Shown one piece after another: positions 6,434 through 38,113 of a stretch of 64,000 nucleotides of DNA. The stretch is from assembly GCA_003166865.1 (NCBI GenBank), contig PMUP01000041.1:181334-245333 (forward strand). Direction: 5' to 3'. Numbering within the stretch: position 1 is the stretch's first letter; every line of letters starts with the position of its first letter. A model generated the notes under the pieces. The model made no database searches, was not told the DNA's origin, and saw nothing but the letters and a program-made list of their open reading frames with translations. A program made the translations under genes and the position numbers. Source of the stretch: Bryobacterales bacterium (GTDB taxonomy: Bacteria > Acidobacteriota > Terriglobia > Bryobacterales > Bryobacteraceae).

Positions 6434-7752
6434 TACCGGTCGCCCTCCGCAAGAGCGTTCACCAGATCTTTGAAGACCCGGCCACGCTGCTCGTAGTTAT
6501 CGAACTGATCGAAGCTCGAGCACGCGGGAGCAAGCAGCACCGTATCGCCCGGGGCGGCCGAGCGTGAGGCTCGATCGACGGCGGCAGCTAGAGTGCCGCA
6601 TGGAATGATCGGCACGGAGTCACCGAGATGCTTGGCGATTTTCGGAGCGGCAGCGCCGATCAACAACGCGGCGCGGGCTTTCGCGCGAAGAGGTTCACGC
6701 AGCACGGTGTAATCGCTGTCCTTGTCCCTGCCACCGAGGATGATCCAGAGTCCGCCGTCGAATGCGCCGATGGCCTTGAGGGTGGCGTCCACGCTGGTGG
6801 CTTTGGAATCGTTGTAATAGCCGACACCCGCGAGCGTGCGGACGAACTCCAGGCGATGCTCCACCGGGGCGAATGTTGCCGCGGCCTCTGCGATCTGGCT
6901 CCGGTCTGATCCGGCATTGATCGCGATCAGAGCAGCCGCCATGACATTTTCGTAGTTATGCCGCCCTCGCAATCGCAGATCATGGACGTTCAGCAGCGCT
7001 GAGCCCTCGATGTGAATCACGTCTCCTTCGAGCCACGCCCCGGAAATTGAGTGAGTGCTGCTGAACCAGGCGGTCTTAGCGGGTGTGCGTTTGGAAAAAC
7101 CTACGGTCACTGAATCGTCGGCGTTTAGAATCGCAAGATCGTCTCGGCCTTGCGTCTCGAACAGACGGGCCTTCGCGTCGATGTAGTTCTCGAAAGTATG
7201 ATGCCGGTCGAGATGATTCTGGGTCACGTTGAGGCAGGCCGCAATGGGCGCGCGAAACGTCTCGATGGTTTCCAGTTGAAAGCTCGAAAGTTCGAGTACG
7301 TTCCATTGATCCGGCCGCGACGTTTCCACCATTCCGGCGGGCGCTGCGCCGATGTTGCCGCCGACCTGGCAGGCAATGCCGCTCTCACGCAGGATGTGAC
7401 CGGTGAGCGCGGTGGTAGTCGTTTTTCCATTGGTGCCGGTGATGCCGATGTTCCGCCCTTCAAGATATGGCGCGGCGAGTTCCAGCTCACCGATCACGGG
7501 AACGCCGCGAGCGCGCACCGGCGCGAGCAGATCGAGATCGGCCGGGACACCCGGTGAAAGCACCACCAGCTCCGCGTCGTGAAACGCTGCTTCGAGCTGT
7601 GGTTCCACCATTACACTCTCTATTTCTTCACCCATTAACTTTTCATCCACGGCGCGAACAATGGCACCCTTCTGGCGCAGAAGCCGTATCGCCGCCACGC
7701 CAGAACGTGCCATTCCCACCACGAGAACCCGTGTACCCTCCAGCTTCCGCAT
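6433..7752 (-). CDS. murD: UDP-N-acetylmuramoylalanine--D-glutamate ligase MurD
   Basis: Cytoplasmic ligase that adds D-glutamate to UDP-MurNAc-L-Ala. The 439-residue length is typical. The product shows the N-terminal Rossmann segment VLVVGMARSGVAAIRLL, the ATP loop GITGTNGKTTTTALTGH near residue 108, NVTQNHLDRH in the central domain, and NDSKATSVDATLKAI near residue 315, a MurD hallmark. GGRDKDSDY and LLAPACSSFDQFDNYEQRG close the C-terminal domain. It lies between mraY and ftsW, 26 bases downstream of mraY. Confidence 0.97.
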   Translation of the reverse strand: MRKLEGTRVLVVGMARSGVAAIRLLRQKGAIVRAVDEKLMGEEIESVMVEPQLEAAFHDAELVVLSPGVPADLDLLAPVRARGVPVIGELELAAPYLEGRNIGITGTNGKTTTTALTGHILRESGIACQVGGNIGAAPAGMVETSRPDQWNVLELSSFQLETIETFRAPIAACLNVTQNHLDRHHTFENYIDAKARLFETQGRDDLAILNADDSVTVGFSKRTPAKTAWFSSTHSISGAWLEGDVIHIEGSALLNVHDLRLRGRHNYENVMAAALIAINAGSDRSQIAEAAATFAPVEHRLEFVRTLAGVGYYNDSKATSVDATLKAIGAFDGGLWIILGGRDKDSDYTVLREPLRAKARAALLIGAAAPKIAKHLGDSVPIIPCGTLAAAVDRASRSAAPGDTVLLAPACSSFDQFDNYEQRGRVFKDLVNALAEGDR

Positions 7753-23827: not shown

Positions 23828-25135
23828 ATGAAGCCTGTGTTTCTGCTTGCCATCGCCACGTTCGTCTTGGCCGGCCAGATCGGCCAGTATCCACCTGGAA
23901 CCTATCCGCCGGGCCAAAACCCGCAAGGCCGTTTCCCGGGCGGAGGCAATTCGCGAGGATCCGGCAAGAACACGGATACCAGGTCCGCCAGCGTGTCGTC
24001 GGAGACCTATCGGGGCGTGGTGCGAAAGCTGGAATCTTCATCCATGGAACTGGAAATCGAGGACACCCGGTTTCTGATCGTCGATTTCTCGAACGCCAAT
24101 CCCAAGCCGTCCGACCTGAGAGTTGGGGATGGCTTGGACGTCGTCGCCACAGCGGACAAAGAGGGTAATTTTCACGCCACCAGCATTCAATCGAACCGGG
24201 ACATTGCGCAGACCATCAACGACCGGGACGGCATAGAAATCCAGAGGGAAGGGAGAACCGGGCCGCCGCCTACGATTTTGGTCAGGCCGGACTCCGCCTC
24301 CGCTGGTGATAATGATTCGGGCCCGCCCGTATTGAAGCACGGAAAACCGGCCCCGCACGCCTCCGATCCGATTCCCGACGATGCCCCGAGCACGCCGTCA
24401 CGGGCGAATTCGGCGCCGGAGCCAGCGCGGTCCTCCGCCAATCCTCATTTAGCTCTTATTGAAAAAGCCCGGGAGGTCGCGTCGAAATTTTTGGAAGGAT
24501 TGCCAAACTACGTTGTCCAGGAATCCGCCACACGCTATGTCAGCGAAACGCGGCAGCCGAGTTGGAATGTCGTCGATATCGTTTCCGCCGAAGTGGTCTT
24601 TGAGGAACACAAGGAGACCTATCGAAATCTCCAGATCAACGGGAAGCCCTCCAAAAAGCCGCCGGAGGAATCGGGTGCCTGGTCCACCGGTGAATTTGGA
24701 ACCATTCTTGGGAACCTGTTCTCGCCTTACACGGATGCCGACTTCAAGTTCGCCCAAGACGATACGATCTTGCATCGATCCGCTTCCGTGTTCGACTTCA
24801 AAGTGCTGCGCGTCCGGGCCGCTTGGCGCATCTGGACCACCGGACAATACATTATGCCTGCCTATAGAGGCTCGGTCTGGATCGACAAACAGACCGGGGA
24901 CGTGCTGCGCATAGAGATGCAGGCCAAAGAAATTCCCGAGGCGTTTCCCGAGATCTCGGTAGAAACCGCCGTGGACTACGATTCCATACGCTTAGGAACA
25001 CCCGAGCAATTCCTGCTGCCGGTGCATTCCGAGGCGTTGAGTTGCTGGCGAGGATCCAACGATTGCCAGCGGAACGTCATCGAGTTCCGCAACTATCACA
25101 AATTCACCGGCGAATCGAACATCGAGTTTAAGTAG
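23828..25135 (+). CDS. Secreted protein of unknown function
   Basis: A 435-residue protein with an N-terminal signal peptide (VFLLAIATFVLAGQ) followed by a Gly/Pro-rich segment (YPPGTYPPGQNPQGRFPGGG). A small beta domain covers about residues 58-125 (ETYRGVVRKLESSSMELEIEDTRFL, resembling a DUF5666-like fold), then a low-complexity linker, then a C-terminal domain from about residue 210 (LPNYVVQESATRYVS) that recurs in acidobacterial secreted proteins. No enzyme motif is seen. Its last 8 bases overlap the 3' end of the convergent thioesterase remnant. Confidence 0.8.
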   Translation: MKPVFLLAIATFVLAGQIGQYPPGTYPPGQNPQGRFPGGGNSRGSGKNTDTRSASVSSETYRGVVRKLESSSMELEIEDTRFLIVDFSNANPKPSDLRVGDGLDVVATADKEGNFHATSIQSNRDIAQTINDRDGIEIQREGRTGPPPTILVRPDSASAGDNDSGPPVLKHGKPAPHASDPIPDDAPSTPSRANSAPEPARSSANPHLALIEKAREVASKFLEGLPNYVVQESATRYVSETRQPSWNVVDIVSAEVVFEEHKETYRNLQINGKPSKKPPEESGAWSTGEFGTILGNLFSPYTDADFKFAQDDTILHRSASVFDFKVLRVRAAWRIWTTGQYIMPAYRGSVWIDKQTGDVLRIEMQAKEIPEAFPEISVETAVDYDSIRLGTPEQFLLPVHSEALSCWRGSNDCQRNVIEFRNYHKFTGESNIEFK

Positions 25136-25328
25136 TCCGGGGAGTTTCAGTCAGGGGCTGGATTCCAAACAGCGGCCAGTATTTCTCGGGAAGCTTCGCC
25201 GGCTTCCTATCAGCTCCTAGAAACACGTGCTTGGTTTCGCCGGATGCGAGTTGGCGGCCGCTCTGCGCGTCGCTGATTTCATACTGAAACTGAACGGCGC
25301 GCCGGCTCGCATTGGCTACCCAAGTTTT
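25128..25328 (-). pseudogene. 3' fragment of a YbgC-type thioesterase split by a transposon
   Basis: This stretch encodes KTWVANASRRAVQFQYEI, then SGRQLASGETKHVFLGA, KPAKLPEKYWPLFGIQP and a stop at 25,128. It is the second half of a hotdog-fold acyl-CoA thioesterase of the YbgC/FadM type. It has no start. Its 5' end stops at the target-site duplication (25,321-25,328) of the IS1595 element. The other half lies at 28,962-29,233. Removing the element and one CAAGTTTT copy restores one uninterrupted frame of about 150 residues, so the gene was intact before insertion. Confidence 0.93.
25321..25328 (+). repeat. Left 8-bp target-site duplication CAAGTTTT
   Basis: CAAGTTTT directly precedes the left inverted repeat and is repeated exactly at 28,962-28,969 after the right one. 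Eight bases is the duplication length known for IS1595-family elements. Confidence 0.95.
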
Positions 25329-25352
25329 GGCAATAATATACGTGACTGACAG
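25329..25352 (+). repeat. Left terminal inverted repeat of IS1595 element
   Basis: Begins GGCAATAATATAC and ends CTGACAG. Read on the opposite strand, 28,961-28,938 is the same over 24 bases except for two mismatches (positions 14 and 17). Confidence 0.95.
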
Positions 25353-25371
25353 AAGTTGTTAGACTCTGGGA

Positions 25372-26127
25372 ATGGATCATCCGCTAGATGCGGTCCATGA
25401 AAAACTAGAACGGGCCCACGAGAACATCCTCAATCTCGAAAGAGAAATCCGGGTCTTTCTTGAAGGTGGTTCGCACCCAACTGTCCCCAATGATGATCCT
25501 GACGCCATCCAGGAAGCGGTTAAACTTGACACGGACAGAATCATCCCAAGGCGCTTCAGCATTCTTAGCGGGGAGATCATTCATCACCTGCGTTCCTGCT
25601 TGGACCATATCGCGTGGCAGTTGTCCAGCCCGCAAAAACGGGAGTCCGACCCTGCTGGCATAGAATTCCCGATCTTTTCGAGCAAGCCCGTGGAGAAAGG
25701 TGCAGTTCGCCGATACGAACGAAAAGTAGAGGGAATTTCGGACGCAGGACGCAAGATCATTGAGGAGCTGCAACCGTACCACCGCGATCCCGCATTCTTG
25801 CTTAGCGGTCCCCTCTGCCATCCGTTGTGGATCATTCACGATATGGACAGAATCGACAAACATCGTGAACTCGTTATCACGATGGCCACGTTTGACATTC
25901 CCGTGCGAGGTATCGAGAGTATGTACCTCAGGCTCTATCGTGAGTCCAATTTTCCCGAGGGCGATATTGTCGATCTTGGCAGAGCCTTCGATCCGAATAG
26001 CAAGATCACCACGCAAATATCGTTTCGGGAGTTCGGTGGGGGGAAAGTTGAGGCGGTTATCCCAGGACTCCATTACCTTGCGCGCAATGTCCACGAGGTC
26101 GCCGGAATGTTCTCGGGATGCTTCTGA
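25372..26127 (+). CDS. Transposon cargo protein of unknown function (251 aa)
   Basis: First cargo gene, starting 20 bases inside the left inverted repeat. The 251-residue product is soluble with a helical N-terminus. Its most distinctive segment is near residues 63-85, GEIIHHLRSCLDHIAWQLSS, and the GExxHxLRSxLDHxxWxL pattern recurs in uncharacterised soil-bacterial proteins. LQPYHRDPAFLLSGPLCHPLWIIHDMDRIDKHRELV follows near residue 130 (family terms, residues about 130-165). The two His-rich helices are conserved-looking but I cannot assign an activity. Codon choice is less GC-biased than in the chromosomal neighbours, consistent with arrival on the element. Confidence 0.75.
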   Translation: MDHPLDAVHEKLERAHENILNLEREIRVFLEGGSHPTVPNDDPDAIQEAVKLDTDRIIPRRFSILSGEIIHHLRSCLDHIAWQLSSPQKRESDPAGIEFPIFSSKPVEKGAVRRYERKVEGISDAGRKIIEELQPYHRDPAFLLSGPLCHPLWIIHDMDRIDKHRELVITMATFDIPVRGIESMYLRLYRESNFPEGDIVDLGRAFDPNSKITTQISFREFGGGKVEAVIPGLHYLARNVHEVAGMFSGCF

Positions 26128-26163
26128 CAGAATGTGCATTGTTAAGCTCGTAAAAAGGATTTC

Positions 26164-26457
26164 ATGAGGATCTCAGTAACCGGCATCGCTTGGTACAAGA
26201 GAGAAGATTACGAGAGGCTCAGGGCGTTGTTCATGGACGGAGATAAACTGCCATCAACCTACGACCAGTGGCTCAATAAGGCGGAGGACATCGTGAACCA
26301 ATTCAGGAGTAACGGTCAAGCCTTCCAAAAAGTCTATATCGATCCCAACACGTTTGCCGATTGGTGTTCCGCTCGGGGCTTGGATATCGACGCCAAGGCT
26401 CGCATGCGGTTCAGTAATGAGGGCGCTGCCGGGAAACACGGTGACCGAGATGGATAG
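26164..26457 (+). CDS. Small transposon cargo protein of unknown function (97 aa)
   Basis: Second cargo gene with AAGGA five bases before its ATG. The product begins ISVTGIAWYKREDYERL and contains YDQWLNKAEDIV, VYIDPNTFADWCSARGLDIDAKARMRF. This pattern (GIAWYKREDWPRL, then a Trp-Cys-x-x-Arg-Gly-Leu segment) recurs in small uncharacterised proteins of many proteobacteria and soil bacteria. No catalytic role is apparent. It may form an operon with the preceding gene, 36 bases upstream. Confidence 0.75.
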   Translation: MRISVTGIAWYKREDYERLRALFMDGDKLPSTYDQWLNKAEDIVNQFRSNGQAFQKVYIDPNTFADWCSARGLDIDAKARMRFSNEGAAGKHGDRDG

Positions 26458-26690
26458 ATTCATTTTAGTATGATGAAGCCCATGAAACAACCCTGCGAAG
26501 GGACCTGCGATCAGGGCAATCTGATCTAATCGCGCGTTGAATGAGCGAGTGACAATCACCTCGCGTGAACGGACGCGTTCTCTTCCGAATCCTTGCCGGG
26601 ACGAAGAGGCTTGCCCGTTCGCGTTGGTGCGTCGGGATGGCGCTCTGCCATTGCTAGCCGTAGTTTAGCAAATCGGCGGAAGGGCTATCC

Positions 26691-27674
26691 GTGTACTCGC
26701 GTTTGGAACATCTGGCCAAATCGATTTGGCTCGGGAAATTCAATCGGAGCAATAGAGTCGTGGCGTACACGGCATACTTTGACGAAAGCGGACATCCAGA
26801 CAGCGGGCAATTTGTTGTCGTCGCGGGCGCTGTGGCGGATATCGATCAGTGGATAGAGTTTCAACGCGAATGGCTAGACGCCCTTGGACACCTGGGAACC
26901 GTTTTTCATACCACGGATTTTAACAGTGGCACTCCACCATTCGATAAATTGACGGAAGACGACAAGGATATGTTGTTTGAACGACTGGTAGGAATCATCT
27001 GCCGCCACGTCGAAAAGACTTGTGCTGTAACCGTTGCCCTTGAAGAGTTCAAGCGGGCGAACAAGAAATACCTCTTGGCTGAGCAGCACGGATTCCCATA
27101 CCCCTTGGCAGCGCGCTCATGTATGGCCGGTGTGGGGCAATGGGCGCACTACTATTCTTTCGACGTTAATAACATTCTGTTTGTTTTCGAAGATGGAGCC
27201 AAGCACAAAGGGCAAATCAAGTTGATCTCCGAAAGGGACGGGTTGCCGATTCCCAGATTTGAGAAGAAGAGCGAAATTACGGCACTCCAGGCAGGTGATC
27301 TAATCGCATGGTGTATCCATGCCATCCTTACCAAAGCCGCAAAAGCTGAACGATACGAGAAAGGTTTGCGGAGAATCGCCGAAATGCCTAAAACTTGGCG
27401 CGATGTAGACCTGAGGGACCCGGACCGTTTGCCGACGATCCTCGGTATCGCTTTGCGCGATCCTGCTATGAAGTACGAATGTCGGATTGTCAGACAGCGA
27501 GGTAAGCGGCGTGCTGTTATTACTCAACGACCGAAGAACGCGCCGGGCCAATTCAAGATTGATCGAAAGAACGATGTGATTCCCGAGGCAAGGCATATCT
27601 CGCTGGAGGAATACCGCGAAGCCGCGCGGCGCTACGATGAAGCGAAAGCCGCGCTCCCTAACGCTTTACCTTGA
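26691..27674 (+). CDS. DUF3800 domain protein (transposon cargo)
   Basis: Third cargo gene. The N-terminal AYTAYFDESGHPDSGQFVVVAGAVAD and the later FEDGAKHKGQIKLI, then EITALQAGDLIAWCIHAIL, are the acidic landmarks (DESG, E, LQxxDxxA) of DUF3800, a family predicted to have an RNase H-like fold with metal-binding acids. It is frequent on mobile elements and near defence genes, but its activity is not established. The start is uncertain: GTG 26,691 gives 327 residues, and GTG 26,760, directly before AYTAYFDESG, gives about 304 and matches the family's usual beginning better. Confidence 0.85.
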   Translation: MYSRLEHLAKSIWLGKFNRSNRVVAYTAYFDESGHPDSGQFVVVAGAVADIDQWIEFQREWLDALGHLGTVFHTTDFNSGTPPFDKLTEDDKDMLFERLVGIICRHVEKTCAVTVALEEFKRANKKYLLAEQHGFPYPLAARSCMAGVGQWAHYYSFDVNNILFVFEDGAKHKGQIKLISERDGLPIPRFEKKSEITALQAGDLIAWCIHAILTKAAKAERYEKGLRRIAEMPKTWRDVDLRDPDRLPTILGIALRDPAMKYECRIVRQRGKRRAVITQRPKNAPGQFKIDRKNDVIPEARHISLEEYREAARRYDEAKAALPNALP

Positions 27675-27725
27675 CAGCACCTTGTGAGACCCACTGCCCG
27701 GTTTTCCTTATGGCATGATTAAACC

Positions 27726-27899
27726 ATGAAGGCTAAGCCTGAATACGTGGAAGGCACAGAAGCATGGACGCGGTTCCAAAGGGCGATGAAAACAGTAATC
27801 GCTGTGCCACATGCCGAGATTCAACGACGGATTGAAGCGGAGCGTATCGAGTCAGCCAAGAATCCGAACAGACGCGGCCCGAAACCCAAAAGCAAGTGA
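27726..27899 (+). CDS. Small basic transposon cargo protein (57 aa)
   Basis: A short gene between the DUF3800 gene and the transposase. It reads MKAKPEYVEGTEAWTRFQRA, then VPHAEIQRRIEAERIES and NPNRRGPKPKSK. The YVEGxEAxxRF start, VPHAEI helix and RRGPKPK tail resemble small uncharacterised proteins found on many mobile elements. It is strongly basic, so nucleic-acid binding is possible but unproven. An ATG follows an A-rich leader and the frame is free of stops for 57 codons. The coding call rests mainly on recognising that pattern. Confidence 0.6.
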   Translation: MKAKPEYVEGTEAWTRFQRAMKTVIAVPHAEIQRRIEAERIESAKNPNRRGPKPKSK

Positions 27900-27945
27900 A
27901 CGGCCCTACGCGGACTTTCGCCCGCGCTTGAGCCTCCCGTACTTG

Positions 27946-28929
27946 TTACGCGATTGCTGACGGCGTTTCCGCCTCCAGTTTGCCGGTTAGCTCCGCATAG
28001 GTGAGGCGCTTGCCTACAGCCTGCTTCATGACTTCGATGAAGCGATCCGAATCATTCATCCCCCGTCTGTTGTTAAAGCGGAACGCCTGTTCGTCGATGT
28101 AGCGGAACAGATGGAACGGTTCGACGCTCACGTAGGTTCCGTGCAGCCCGCGCTTCAATAGCGACCAAAAGTTTTCCAATCCGTTCGTGTGAACCTGCCC
28201 ATCGACGTAGCGCTCAGCGTGGTTGACGACTTGGTGCTTGTACCGATCGTCCATCTTCCACTGGCTTGCGTATTCATCCGAGAAGATCACCGAGCCAACA
28301 TCGACGTTGTTTTGCACATGCTCACGAATGACCGGAACGGATCGATCCGGCACGACGGCGGCGCGTACTTCGCCCTTGCGCTCCAGCATACCGATGACCA
28401 CAACCTTACCAGCGCGACGGCCTACCTTCTGGAGTTCGTTTTTGCGCTTCTTGTGCATGTTCCGCATCTTGCCGCCGATGAAAGTTTCGTCCACCTCAAC
28501 TTCGCCGCCGAGGTTTCCGCCGGTCAGGGGGTCCTGCATCGCAAGCCGTCCACGTTGGAGCATGAACCAAGCGGTCTTCTGAGTCACACCAACGGCGCGG
28601 TGAATCTCCCAAGATGAAATGCCGTTCTTGCAGTTCACCAGCATCCACATAACCGGAAGCCACTTCTCAAGGCCAATCAGGCTTTCCTCGAAGATCGTTC
28701 CGACCTTGAGCGAGAACTTCGCCTTGTCGTGCGCGGGCTTTGCGTAGCACTTGTAAACCTTGGCATTCGGCAGGTAGGACACATCCTCCGAACCGCAGTG
28801 CGGGCACTTTGGCTTACCATCGGGCCAGCGCAGGTTCGCCATGAACTCTCGGCAGTTCTCGGGATCGGCGTAATGGATAATTGCCTGCTGTAAAGTCTTG
28901 ATTGCTTTGGCCATGATTAACTCTATCAT
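27946..28929 (-). CDS. IS1595-family transposase
   Basis: DDE-type transposase of 327 residues that moves the surrounding 3.6-kb element. The N-terminal zinc ribbon has Cys42-x-x-Cys45 (CPHCGSEDV) with YKCY beyond. KFSLKVGTIFEESLIGLEKWL and NCKNGISSWEIHRAVGVTQKTAWFML (residues about 100-125) form the helix-turn-helix region. The catalytic acids are in VDETFIGGK, FSDEY and GLENFWSLLKRG. An alternative start at MAKAIK (28,914) would drop five residues. The gene reads toward the cargo genes, opposite to them, and starts 9 bases inside the right inverted repeat. No inactivating change is seen. Confidence 0.95.
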   Translation of the reverse strand: MIELIMAKAIKTLQQAIIHYADPENCREFMANLRWPDGKPKCPHCGSEDVSYLPNAKVYKCYAKPAHDKAKFSLKVGTIFEESLIGLEKWLPVMWMLVNCKNGISSWEIHRAVGVTQKTAWFMLQRGRLAMQDPLTGGNLGGEVEVDETFIGGKMRNMHKKRKNELQKVGRRAGKVVVIGMLERKGEVRAAVVPDRSVPVIREHVQNNVDVGSVIFSDEYASQWKMDDRYKHQVVNHAERYVDGQVHTNGLENFWSLLKRGLHGTYVSVEPFHLFRYIDEQAFRFNNRRGMNDSDRFIEVMKQAVGKRLTYAELTGKLEAETPSAIA

Positions 28930-28937
28930 ACAAAGCG

Positions 28938-28961
28938 CTGTCAGGCAAGTATATTATTGCC
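28938..28961 (-). repeat. Right terminal inverted repeat of IS1595 element
   Basis: Read on the minus strand it begins GGCAATAATATAC and ends CTGACAG, matching 22 of 24 bases of the left end (25,329-25,352). Confidence 0.95.
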
Positions 28962-28969
28962 CAAGTTTT
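28962..28969 (+). repeat. Right 8-bp target-site duplication CAAGTTTT
   Basis: Exact copy of 25,321-25,328, directly outside the right inverted repeat. It lies within codons for Val-Lys-Thr-Trp of the interrupted thioesterase. Confidence 0.95.
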
Positions 28970-29233
28970 CACTGCAATCTCCTGGTCGTAGCGCGCGGGA
29001 CGAAGATACCGGCAATGCGCCTCAACCACGGCCAGCAAAATCCCGTCGTCCACTTCCATATCGCGGTAGCGGCCGCCCGAAGCGCGGCAGTACTCGGCGC
29101 GCCCCACTTCCATCCAGACCAGGTAGTTGGCGTAGTAAACCACGCCCATCTGATCGGTCTCGGCGTACCGCACGCGGAAGCGCGTCTCATGAGAGCGGAC
29201 CCGGCTTTCATTAGACATGGCTTCGTCAGGCAT
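28962..29233 (-). pseudogene. 5' fragment of a YbgC-type thioesterase split by a transposon
   Basis: Encodes the N-terminal half of a hotdog acyl-CoA thioesterase: RYAETDQMGVVYYANYLVWM holds the catalytic Asp region of the YbgC/FadM family, followed by GRAEYCRASGG and RPARYDQEIAVKTW. The frame then runs through the right inverted repeat into the transposon and stops at 28,814 with unrelated residues. Two ATG starts are possible, 29,231-29,233 (overlapping the CYTH gene stop by 8 bases) and 29,216-29,218. The 3' half is at 25,128-25,328. The reconstructed gene would have 149-154 codons, normal for the family. Confidence 0.93.
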
Positions 29234-37405: not shown

Positions 37406-38113
37406 ATGAAGTGCCAGGGAAAATACGAGCGCGACGCCCGCGCGCAGGGCTTCCAGCACATCGCCGGTGTCGATGAAGTCGGACGGGGCGCTTTGTTCGG
37501 CCCGGTGTTTGCCGCCGCCGTCATTTTGTCGCCCGATCGCCCCATTCGCGGCCTCAGGGACAGCAAGCTACTGGATGCCGAACGCCGCGAGACGTTGGCC
37601 CCGCGGATTCGGGAGCGCGCCATCGCCTGGTCCGTCGCCGCCGTGGACGCTTTTGAAATCGACCGCATCAACATCCTCCAGGCTGCGCGTTTGGCCATGC
37701 GCCGCGCCATCCAGCGGCTCACCCCGGCCCCCGATTACTTGCTCGTCGATGCTGTCACTGTGGACCTTCCCACCGCTCAGCGCGCCCTGATCCACGGCGA
37801 CGCCCTATCGCAATGCATCGCGGCAGCGTCTATTATTGCGAAGGTGGAACGCGACGCCTGCATGCGCGAATGGGACCGGGTCTTCCCCCAATACGGTCTC
37901 AAGAACCACAAGGGCTATTCGACGGACGAGCACTGGAAGGCGCTCGAAACCCATGGCCCCACGTCGCTGCATCGCTTCAGCTTCTGGCCCGTGCGCGAAC
38001 ACGCTCGGCACGCGCTCTGGACCGGCTACCCGCGCCAGGGCGATTTGTTGGGATCAGAACCGAGCCGCGACCGTGAGGAAGCGGTTGCAGAGGATGTCGC
38101 ATGCATCCAGTAG
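37406..38113 (+). CDS. rnhB: Ribonuclease HII
   Basis: Endonuclease that removes ribonucleotides and RNA from RNA-DNA hybrids. The active-site GVDEVGRGALFGPVFAAAV lies near residue 21 (Asp-Glu pair). LRDSKLLDAERRE, DYLLVDAVTVDLP and GDALSQCIAAASIIAKVERD follow, then YGLKNHKGYSTDEHWKAL. The C-terminal 25 residues after RQGDLLG are extra and overlap the next gene by 13 bases. Placement after rplS is common. Confidence 0.95.
   Translation: MKCQGKYERDARAQGFQHIAGVDEVGRGALFGPVFAAAVILSPDRPIRGLRDSKLLDAERRETLAPRIRERAIAWSVAAVDAFEIDRINILQAARLAMRRAIQRLTPAPDYLLVDAVTVDLPTAQRALIHGDALSQCIAAASIIAKVERDACMREWDRVFPQYGLKNHKGYSTDEHWKALETHGPTSLHRFSFWPVREHARHALWTGYPRQGDLLGSEPSRDREEAVAEDVACIQ

Follow-up and report, generated by a model that had tools for sequence, protein, structure and literature searches.

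The DUF3800 gene at 26,691–27,674 (forward strand) of the window, by which we mean the whole 64,000-nucleotide stretch of DNA analysed, is cargo of a transposon, and members of its family ride on many IS1595 elements, with transposases that are not one another's nearest relatives. Our preferred though tentative explanation, in which both activity and phenotype are what we infer, is that the product of the gene is a metal-dependent RNase H2-like nuclease that stands alone, the gene itself being one interchangeable, probably protective cargo gene of an IS1595-family transposon.

The element in the window spans 25,329–28,961 (3,633 bp). It is bounded by 24-nt terminal inverted repeats (TIRs) that match at 22 of 24 positions, the left (GGCAATAATATACGTGACTGACAG) at 25,329–25,352 on the forward strand and the right, which pairs with it, at 28,938–28,961 on the reverse strand, and is flanked by an exact 8-bp target site duplication (CAAGTTTT) at 25,321–25,328 and 28,962–28,969. 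Inside the left TIR come a 251-aa gene, a 97-aa gene, a gap of 233 nt, the DUF3800 gene and a 57-aa gene, followed by an oppositely oriented transposase gene and the right TIR; the three further small genes claimed in the initial annotation are thus present. The transposase is full-length (327 aa; 27,946–28,929, reverse strand) and of the IS1595 family (PF12762, 137 bits; NF033547, 169 bits against a cut-off of 75). The insertion splits a 4HBT thioesterase gene, identified by Pfam and by joining the flanks, with its 3′ part at 25,128–25,328 and its 5′ part at 28,970–29,233 (both reverse strand). Because joining the flanks minus one copy of the duplication restores an intact 154-aa thioesterase ORF, and because unbroken ORFs of 130–134 residues with 69–74% identity span the insertion point in three genomes of the same genus (G297, G298 and G300), we take the insertion to be real and its edges to be exact. 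The TIRs, exact duplication, full-length transposase and split host gene confirm the earlier proposal that DUF3800 is transposon cargo: the element is an intact insertion sequence with passenger genes. No internal TIR remnant, a sign of a composite element, was found upstream of DUF3800 in the window. In the host genome the full element occurs once; three other DNA matches are partial, at 67–78% identity. A second IS1595 element of the same genome (L015:6685–10744) carries a SocA/Panacea-type gene, a small neighbouring gene and a DUF7689 gene.

The DUF3800 ORF is unbroken, running from a GTG to a TGA codon and encoding 327 aa, and is the only Pfam-detectable DUF3800 of the host genome (PF12686, residues 28–210, 31.7 bits against a cut-off of 21, E = 3e-7). 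A YSRLEH..S stretch N-terminal to the domain recurs in relatives at L119, L109, L120 and L201, as a protein-level match with synonymous codon changes, which makes the upstream GTG start credible. Two motifs had been noted for this protein, an N-terminal YFDESG and a C-terminal LQxxDxxA. The former is present at residues 29–34, whereas the latter, LQAGDLIA at residues 199–206, ends the domain and not the protein, which continues in a tail of about 120 residues. No close comparison was possible, as the nearest relatives share only about a third to 42% identity. Plasmid and phage records contained no DUF3800 match at E 1e-5, and scans of the genome and of viral contigs with the single window protein returned no relative, whereas an alignment-based search did retrieve relatives.

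The AlphaFold2 model of the protein adopts an RNase HII-like fold (pLDDT 78.8, pTM 0.75). Foldseek matched it to RNases HII and HIII (best E 6e-4), and the top 25 VIA-align rows are all, by title, RNase HII, H2 or HIII or complexes thereof (Z 11.1 to 7.8), the best covering 166 residues with an rmsd of 3.7. Checking for an RNase H-like metal site by structure prediction, as the initial annotation had suggested, thus yielded this fold together with three conserved acids that are candidate metal ligands: among 29 aligned proteins, D31 (codon 26,781–26,783) is Asp in 28, E167 (27,189–27,191) is Glu or Asp in 27 and D203 (27,297–27,299) is Asp in all 29, the three codons lying on the forward strand. 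These residues fit a predicted metal-dependent RNase H-fold nuclease. In the element-borne relative at L119, Asn replaces D31, and two of the 29 proteins have no acid at position 167, so some family members may be inactive.

RNase HII itself has a DEDD set of four acids and a DEAGRG-type motif that includes GRG. RNases HII and HIII are the nearest solved folds (Z up to 11.1) and share with the window protein a D-E-x-G at the first strand, but E32 is not conserved in the DUF3800 family and the window protein lacks the GRG: residues 31–36 of the window protein read DESGHP, and position 32, the second RNase HII acid, is Glu in only 16 of the 29 proteins, which we counted against the nuclease reading. 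Because the second acid varies and GRG is missing, the protein is not RNase HII proper. When its profile was compared with that of the window's own RNase HII, no significant match emerged; the gene for that protein, at 37,406–38,113 and named from its sequence, reads as the cell's own. Sequence search of the PDB gave 17 matches up to E 10, the best of which, ribosomal protein uL3 (E 0.0035), we regard as a chance match. PADLOC matched the DUF3800 protein to none of its families up to E 1, and we counted this against a defence reading.

DUF3800 recurs on elements of the same kind. Including the window's, 15 IS1595 elements combine TIRs, an exact 8-bp duplication and a DUF3800 gene (the others are L011, L013, L048, L049, L086, L098, L112, L119, L121, L135, L200, L201, L208 and L210). 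The L119 and L135 proteins resemble the window DUF3800 and have no Pfam match up to E 0.01, and that of L098 shows weak similarity only (phmmer E 0.006) with no Pfam match. In the end-calling control, the best of 87 shuffles, which preserve base composition only, scored 19, against 22–28 for the elements called; a threshold of 20 was used later, and the ends of L048 were called by a different routine, without the shuffled control. Across a phylum survey of 297 genomes, 52 have DUF3800 and 76 have the IS1595 transposase domain, and at least 4 of 58 Pfam DUF3800 matches (the window's included) lie within 5 kb of an IS1595 transposase, against 0.16 expected, the pairs having been picked out by eye from the two match lists. 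Working from the transposase side, we examined 58 of the 60 best-scoring places, and at seven a DUF3800-like gene lies within the element or next to it. A similarity search of 151 related genomes with the window protein gave 15 loci in 14 genomes: seven, including the window, have an IS1595 transposase or pieces of one alongside (five of these also showing TIRs and a duplication), seven have no transposase (four of them less than 2 kb from a contig end) and one further locus (in G023) is at a contig end. At L047, DUF3800 and transposase genes are adjacent with no recognized duplication. In L201 and L208, elements of about 2 kb, DUF3800 is the sole sizeable cargo, accompanied by the transposase and a short ORF or two, so that, with the family also present on many elements, they offer small natural units for testing DUF3800 function without partners.

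The distribution of the gene over the transposases bears on how it was acquired. In a 67-transposase tree, 12 rows carry DUF3800, and their distribution requires 11 gains or losses, ten of them forced by well-supported branches. Shuffled labels require 11.2 changes on average; DUF3800 is scattered as if at random, which is unlike a gene that a given lineage needs for transposition. For a minority trait, the simpler reading of the 11 changes is repeated capture, although losses as well as gains may contribute. The nearest neighbours of the window transposase, L099 and L103, carry a cargo gene with no Pfam family and an AlbA/ATPase gene, respectively. On a tree of the DUF3800 proteins, which is weakly supported (long branches; 11 of 49 inner branches starred), the element-borne rows need nine changes, against a shuffled mean of 13.9 and as low in only 2 of 500 shuffles. 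Because the element-borne rows cluster in this way, some genes may have passed from element to element and not been captured afresh, and some exchange of DUF3800 between elements is likely.

Other elements of the family carry varied cargo. Among 73 transposase ORFs, TIRs with a duplication of no more than one mismatch were recognized for 51, which represent 50 distinct elements (among them the doubtful L065 and the IS1-like L126); the other 22 had none. All 51 are at least 1.9 kb long, leaving room beyond the 1-kb transposase, and 44 are under 4.1 kb. We ran Pfam on 30 cargo proteins from 22 loci, and 10 proteins at nine loci matched families of restriction, abortive-infection or toxin–antitoxin type above cut-off, namely Panacea, ImmA/IrrE-type peptidase, PIN, GmrSD, cytosine and N6/N4 methyltransferases, AIPR and AlbA; two of the methyltransferases carry Mrr or HNH parts. 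The remaining 20 matched none of those families or did so below cut-off only (HNH in L062). In PADLOC, 46 proteins had matches to 116 families up to E 1e-3, and the matches listed (25 of the 116) are to methyltransferases of types II and III, orphan methyltransferases and the mad2 model. The defence-related company ascribed to DUF3800 in the initial annotation was found on some elements with the same kind of chassis (9 of 22 loci), a proportion that is a lead and not an unbiased rate because the cargo proteins were picked by eye. In one genome, the elements L087:3595–6114 and L094:3536–6072 have nearly identical transposases and dissimilar HEPN-like cargo proteins, a case of cargo swapping on one chassis.

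We then considered the other cargo genes of the window element, which had been proposed to form a defence, toxin or addiction set with DUF3800. The 251-aa gene (25,372–26,127, forward strand) has a HEPN-like predicted fold (model pLDDT 78.7), with a best VIA-align score of Z 8.8 to a HEPN protein, values below about 13 being weak for helical bundles. The top six matches (Z 8.8 to 7.3) comprise three named HEPN, two that are a toxin–antitoxin complex (MntA-HepT in one title) and HI0074; Foldseek gave nothing below E 0.001, and no Pfam family matched up to E 1. The HEPN motif is R-x4-6-H, and the window protein contains R74-S-x-L-D-H79 as well as D162-K-H; in the family alignment R74 is kept in 12 of 12 proteins and H79 in nine of 12, the window protein having both. 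Relatives of this protein are cargo of other IS1595 elements (L101, L087, L094 and L162), of L085, an IS1595 element with no recognized duplication, and also occur at places where no element was found. The 97-aa gene (26,164–26,457, forward strand) shows weak NYN-like similarity (PF01936, 21.7 bits, below the cut-off of 24.2). Plasmid records hold two relatives of the 251-aa protein and three of the 97-aa protein. The 57-aa gene (27,726–27,899, forward strand) is a small basic accessory gene of IS1595 elements: an iterated search placed its relatives (E < 1e-3) at 24 distinct loci, 23 with an IS1595 transposase and with varied cargo, the loci searched having mostly been chosen for a transposase or DUF3800. 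Because it accompanies IS1595 transposases with diverse cargo, we regard it as part of the chassis.

Among 294 genomes of the phylum, DUF3800 was present at none of the eight other loci with a 251-aa relative and at neither of the two with a 97-aa relative, within the stretches fetched; on viral contigs, a further 15 loci with a 251-aa relative likewise lacked it. A conserved neighbourhood of DUF3800 with these two families, whose absence the initial annotation had named as evidence against a module, was thus not found, and, with the 57-aa gene a common IS1595 accessory, the proposed four-gene set is not supported. A toxin–antitoxin module, judged by a conserved adjacent partner, was set aside on the same counts (251-aa, 0 of 8; 97-aa, 0 of 2). 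Since no co-occurrence was found at these loci, the window's set has come together from independent cargo genes and is not a conserved module.

Across these elements the chassis (transposase, ends and often a small accessory gene) is retained while cargo is exchanged; in the reading that we prefer, the predicted nuclease would use D31, E167 and D203. A less sure step is that the carrier cell would benefit because RNA or RNA/DNA belonging to phages or to competing mobile DNA would be cut, analogous to the presumed role of the restriction, AIPR, GmrSD and Panacea genes that sibling elements carry; such a benefit would favour keeping and spreading the element. A bolder version, which we hold to be somewhat unlikely, would make the IS1595 elements of Acidobacteriota a compact defence shuttle made up of the transposase, a small basic gene and a slot of swapped single-gene immunity or conflict proteins, DUF3800 being a new RNase H2-like form of immunity that possibly works with an element-made RNA. 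DUF3800 is the commonest slot occupant recognized, and also the one sought hardest. If the shuttle reading were true, DUF3800 would protect its carrier and so drive the element's spread; and if the sibling cargo were a fair sample, the IS1595 family would be a source of unrecognized defence genes.

Retention could instead be selfish, with DUF3800 or its HEPN-like neighbour acting as a toxin-like protein that penalizes loss of the element and is restrained by another of its genes. Consistent with this are the adjoining 251-aa protein and, on sibling elements, genes of Panacea, PIN and ImmA/IrrE type, but relatives of the 251-aa and 97-aa proteins occur without DUF3800, no partner is conserved, and L201 and L208 hold little besides transposase and DUF3800, all of which makes a selfish role unlikely. 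The layout of the elements points in another direction, that DUF3800 aids or controls transposition, for instance through removal of RNA/DNA hybrids from the element ends or by holding the transposase in check: the two genes face each other in 14 of 15 elements (L048 being the exception), in 12 of 15 (not in the window, L112 or L048) DUF3800 is the outermost gene at the end away from the transposase, and in L013, L119 and L200 it overlaps the start of the following small gene by 1–4 bases. However, in L075 this slot is taken by a different cargo gene, which has the same kind of overlap with the small gene, and the presence of DUF3800 in only 7 of the 58 transposase places examined, together with its random-like scatter on the transposase tree, renders an element-serving function improbable. 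We also find it quite unlikely that the gene is a neutral or decaying passenger, captured by chance and under no selection in the window element; the single full copy in the genome and the very mixed cargo of IS1595 elements would suit such a passenger, but DUF3800 recurs on unrelated elements, with open frames and with acidic residues conserved across distant relatives.

Another possibility is an RNA-guided or RNA-partnered nuclease that, like TnpB and IscB of IS605-type elements, would work with a structured RNA made by the element. Passages of one report place DUF3800 genes near candidate structured RNAs (PMC10910872), and the intergenic stretch before the window gene (26,458–26,690, forward strand) is well folded as RNA (z = −2.37 for 26,458–26,700), folding better than 197 of 200 shuffles. 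Against this, the stretch has no known homologue, matching only its own genome among 151 and coming near threshold for no Rfam family. Rfam does hold DUF3800-I and DUF3800-IX RNAs, as passages of another source describe (PMC11701678), but 16 related loci gave no Rfam DUF3800 RNA at gathering score, and the element gave none at E 10. The leader is also short, the DUF3800 domain starting less than 180 nt from the element end in six of seven elements measured, and in several relatives the conserved leader is partly coding, which rules out a structured RNA there. We therefore consider an RNA partner very unlikely, and retain the stand-alone nuclease as interchangeable cargo as the tentative explanation.

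Several known systems resemble parts of this arrangement. Insertion sequences that carry passenger genes were reportedly treated by Siguier in 2009. Tn7-like elements are larger and have another transposase family, whereas 44 of the 51 IS1595 elements here are under 4.1 kb, with one to few cargo genes. The concept of passenger-carrying, or transporter, insertion sequences, as passages of PMC3129680 present it, fits the window element in its IS1595 transposase, TIRs, 8-bp duplication and genes between the ends that are not for transposition; what the window type adds is a small basic gene that recurs and a slot whose cargo changes and is partly of defence type, with DUF3800 as a repeated occupant. 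Tn7-like transposons carry anti-mobile-element and toxin–antitoxin genes, according to passages of PMC8649781, and Tn3 family transposons contain toxin–antitoxin pairs, according to passages of PMC7157771. The latter are likewise addiction-type genes in a transposon, but the window element has no conserved gene pair. Passages of two sources call DUF3800 an RNase H-fold nuclease and an accessory of some CRISPR loci (PMC10910872, PMC12669027); the DUF3800 proteins of V-A2 and VI-F loci described there share the family name and a predicted RNase H fold with ours. Those near Cas12a2 have, in the same passages, TPR parts and a place in CRISPR loci, whereas the window protein, with a helix at its N terminus and a long tail at its C terminus, resides in an insertion sequence. 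Cas profiles matched the element's five proteins only at chance level (Cas12b to the 251-aa protein, E 0.07). These literature passages report no tested activity of DUF3800 itself, despite the structured-RNA and CRISPR contexts. The open-access literature yielded no printed account of a repeated DUF3800–IS1595 association with the small basic gene and changing slot; by that literature, as far as its passages go, the RNase H fold of DUF3800 was already known, and its repeated association with IS1595 is the part that we did not find there.

Some of the related elements depart from the common layout. The IS1595 element at L011:4426–8127 contains two tandem DUF3800 genes and an extra TIR copy at 7247–7267, as though another unit of cargo plus end had joined it; an exact duplication flanks its outer ends. 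A 1.5-kb segment at L014:7029–8513 has IS1595-type ends, a DUF3800 gene and a small accessory gene but no transposase, and is probably a non-autonomous element; its target duplication, read by eye, has one mismatch. The element at L135:6825–9312, with a DUF3800 relative, lies on a contig in IMG/VR. At L126:6848–11237, DUF3800 resides in an element with near-perfect ends and an IS1-like transposase, so that capture of DUF3800 is not limited to IS1595.
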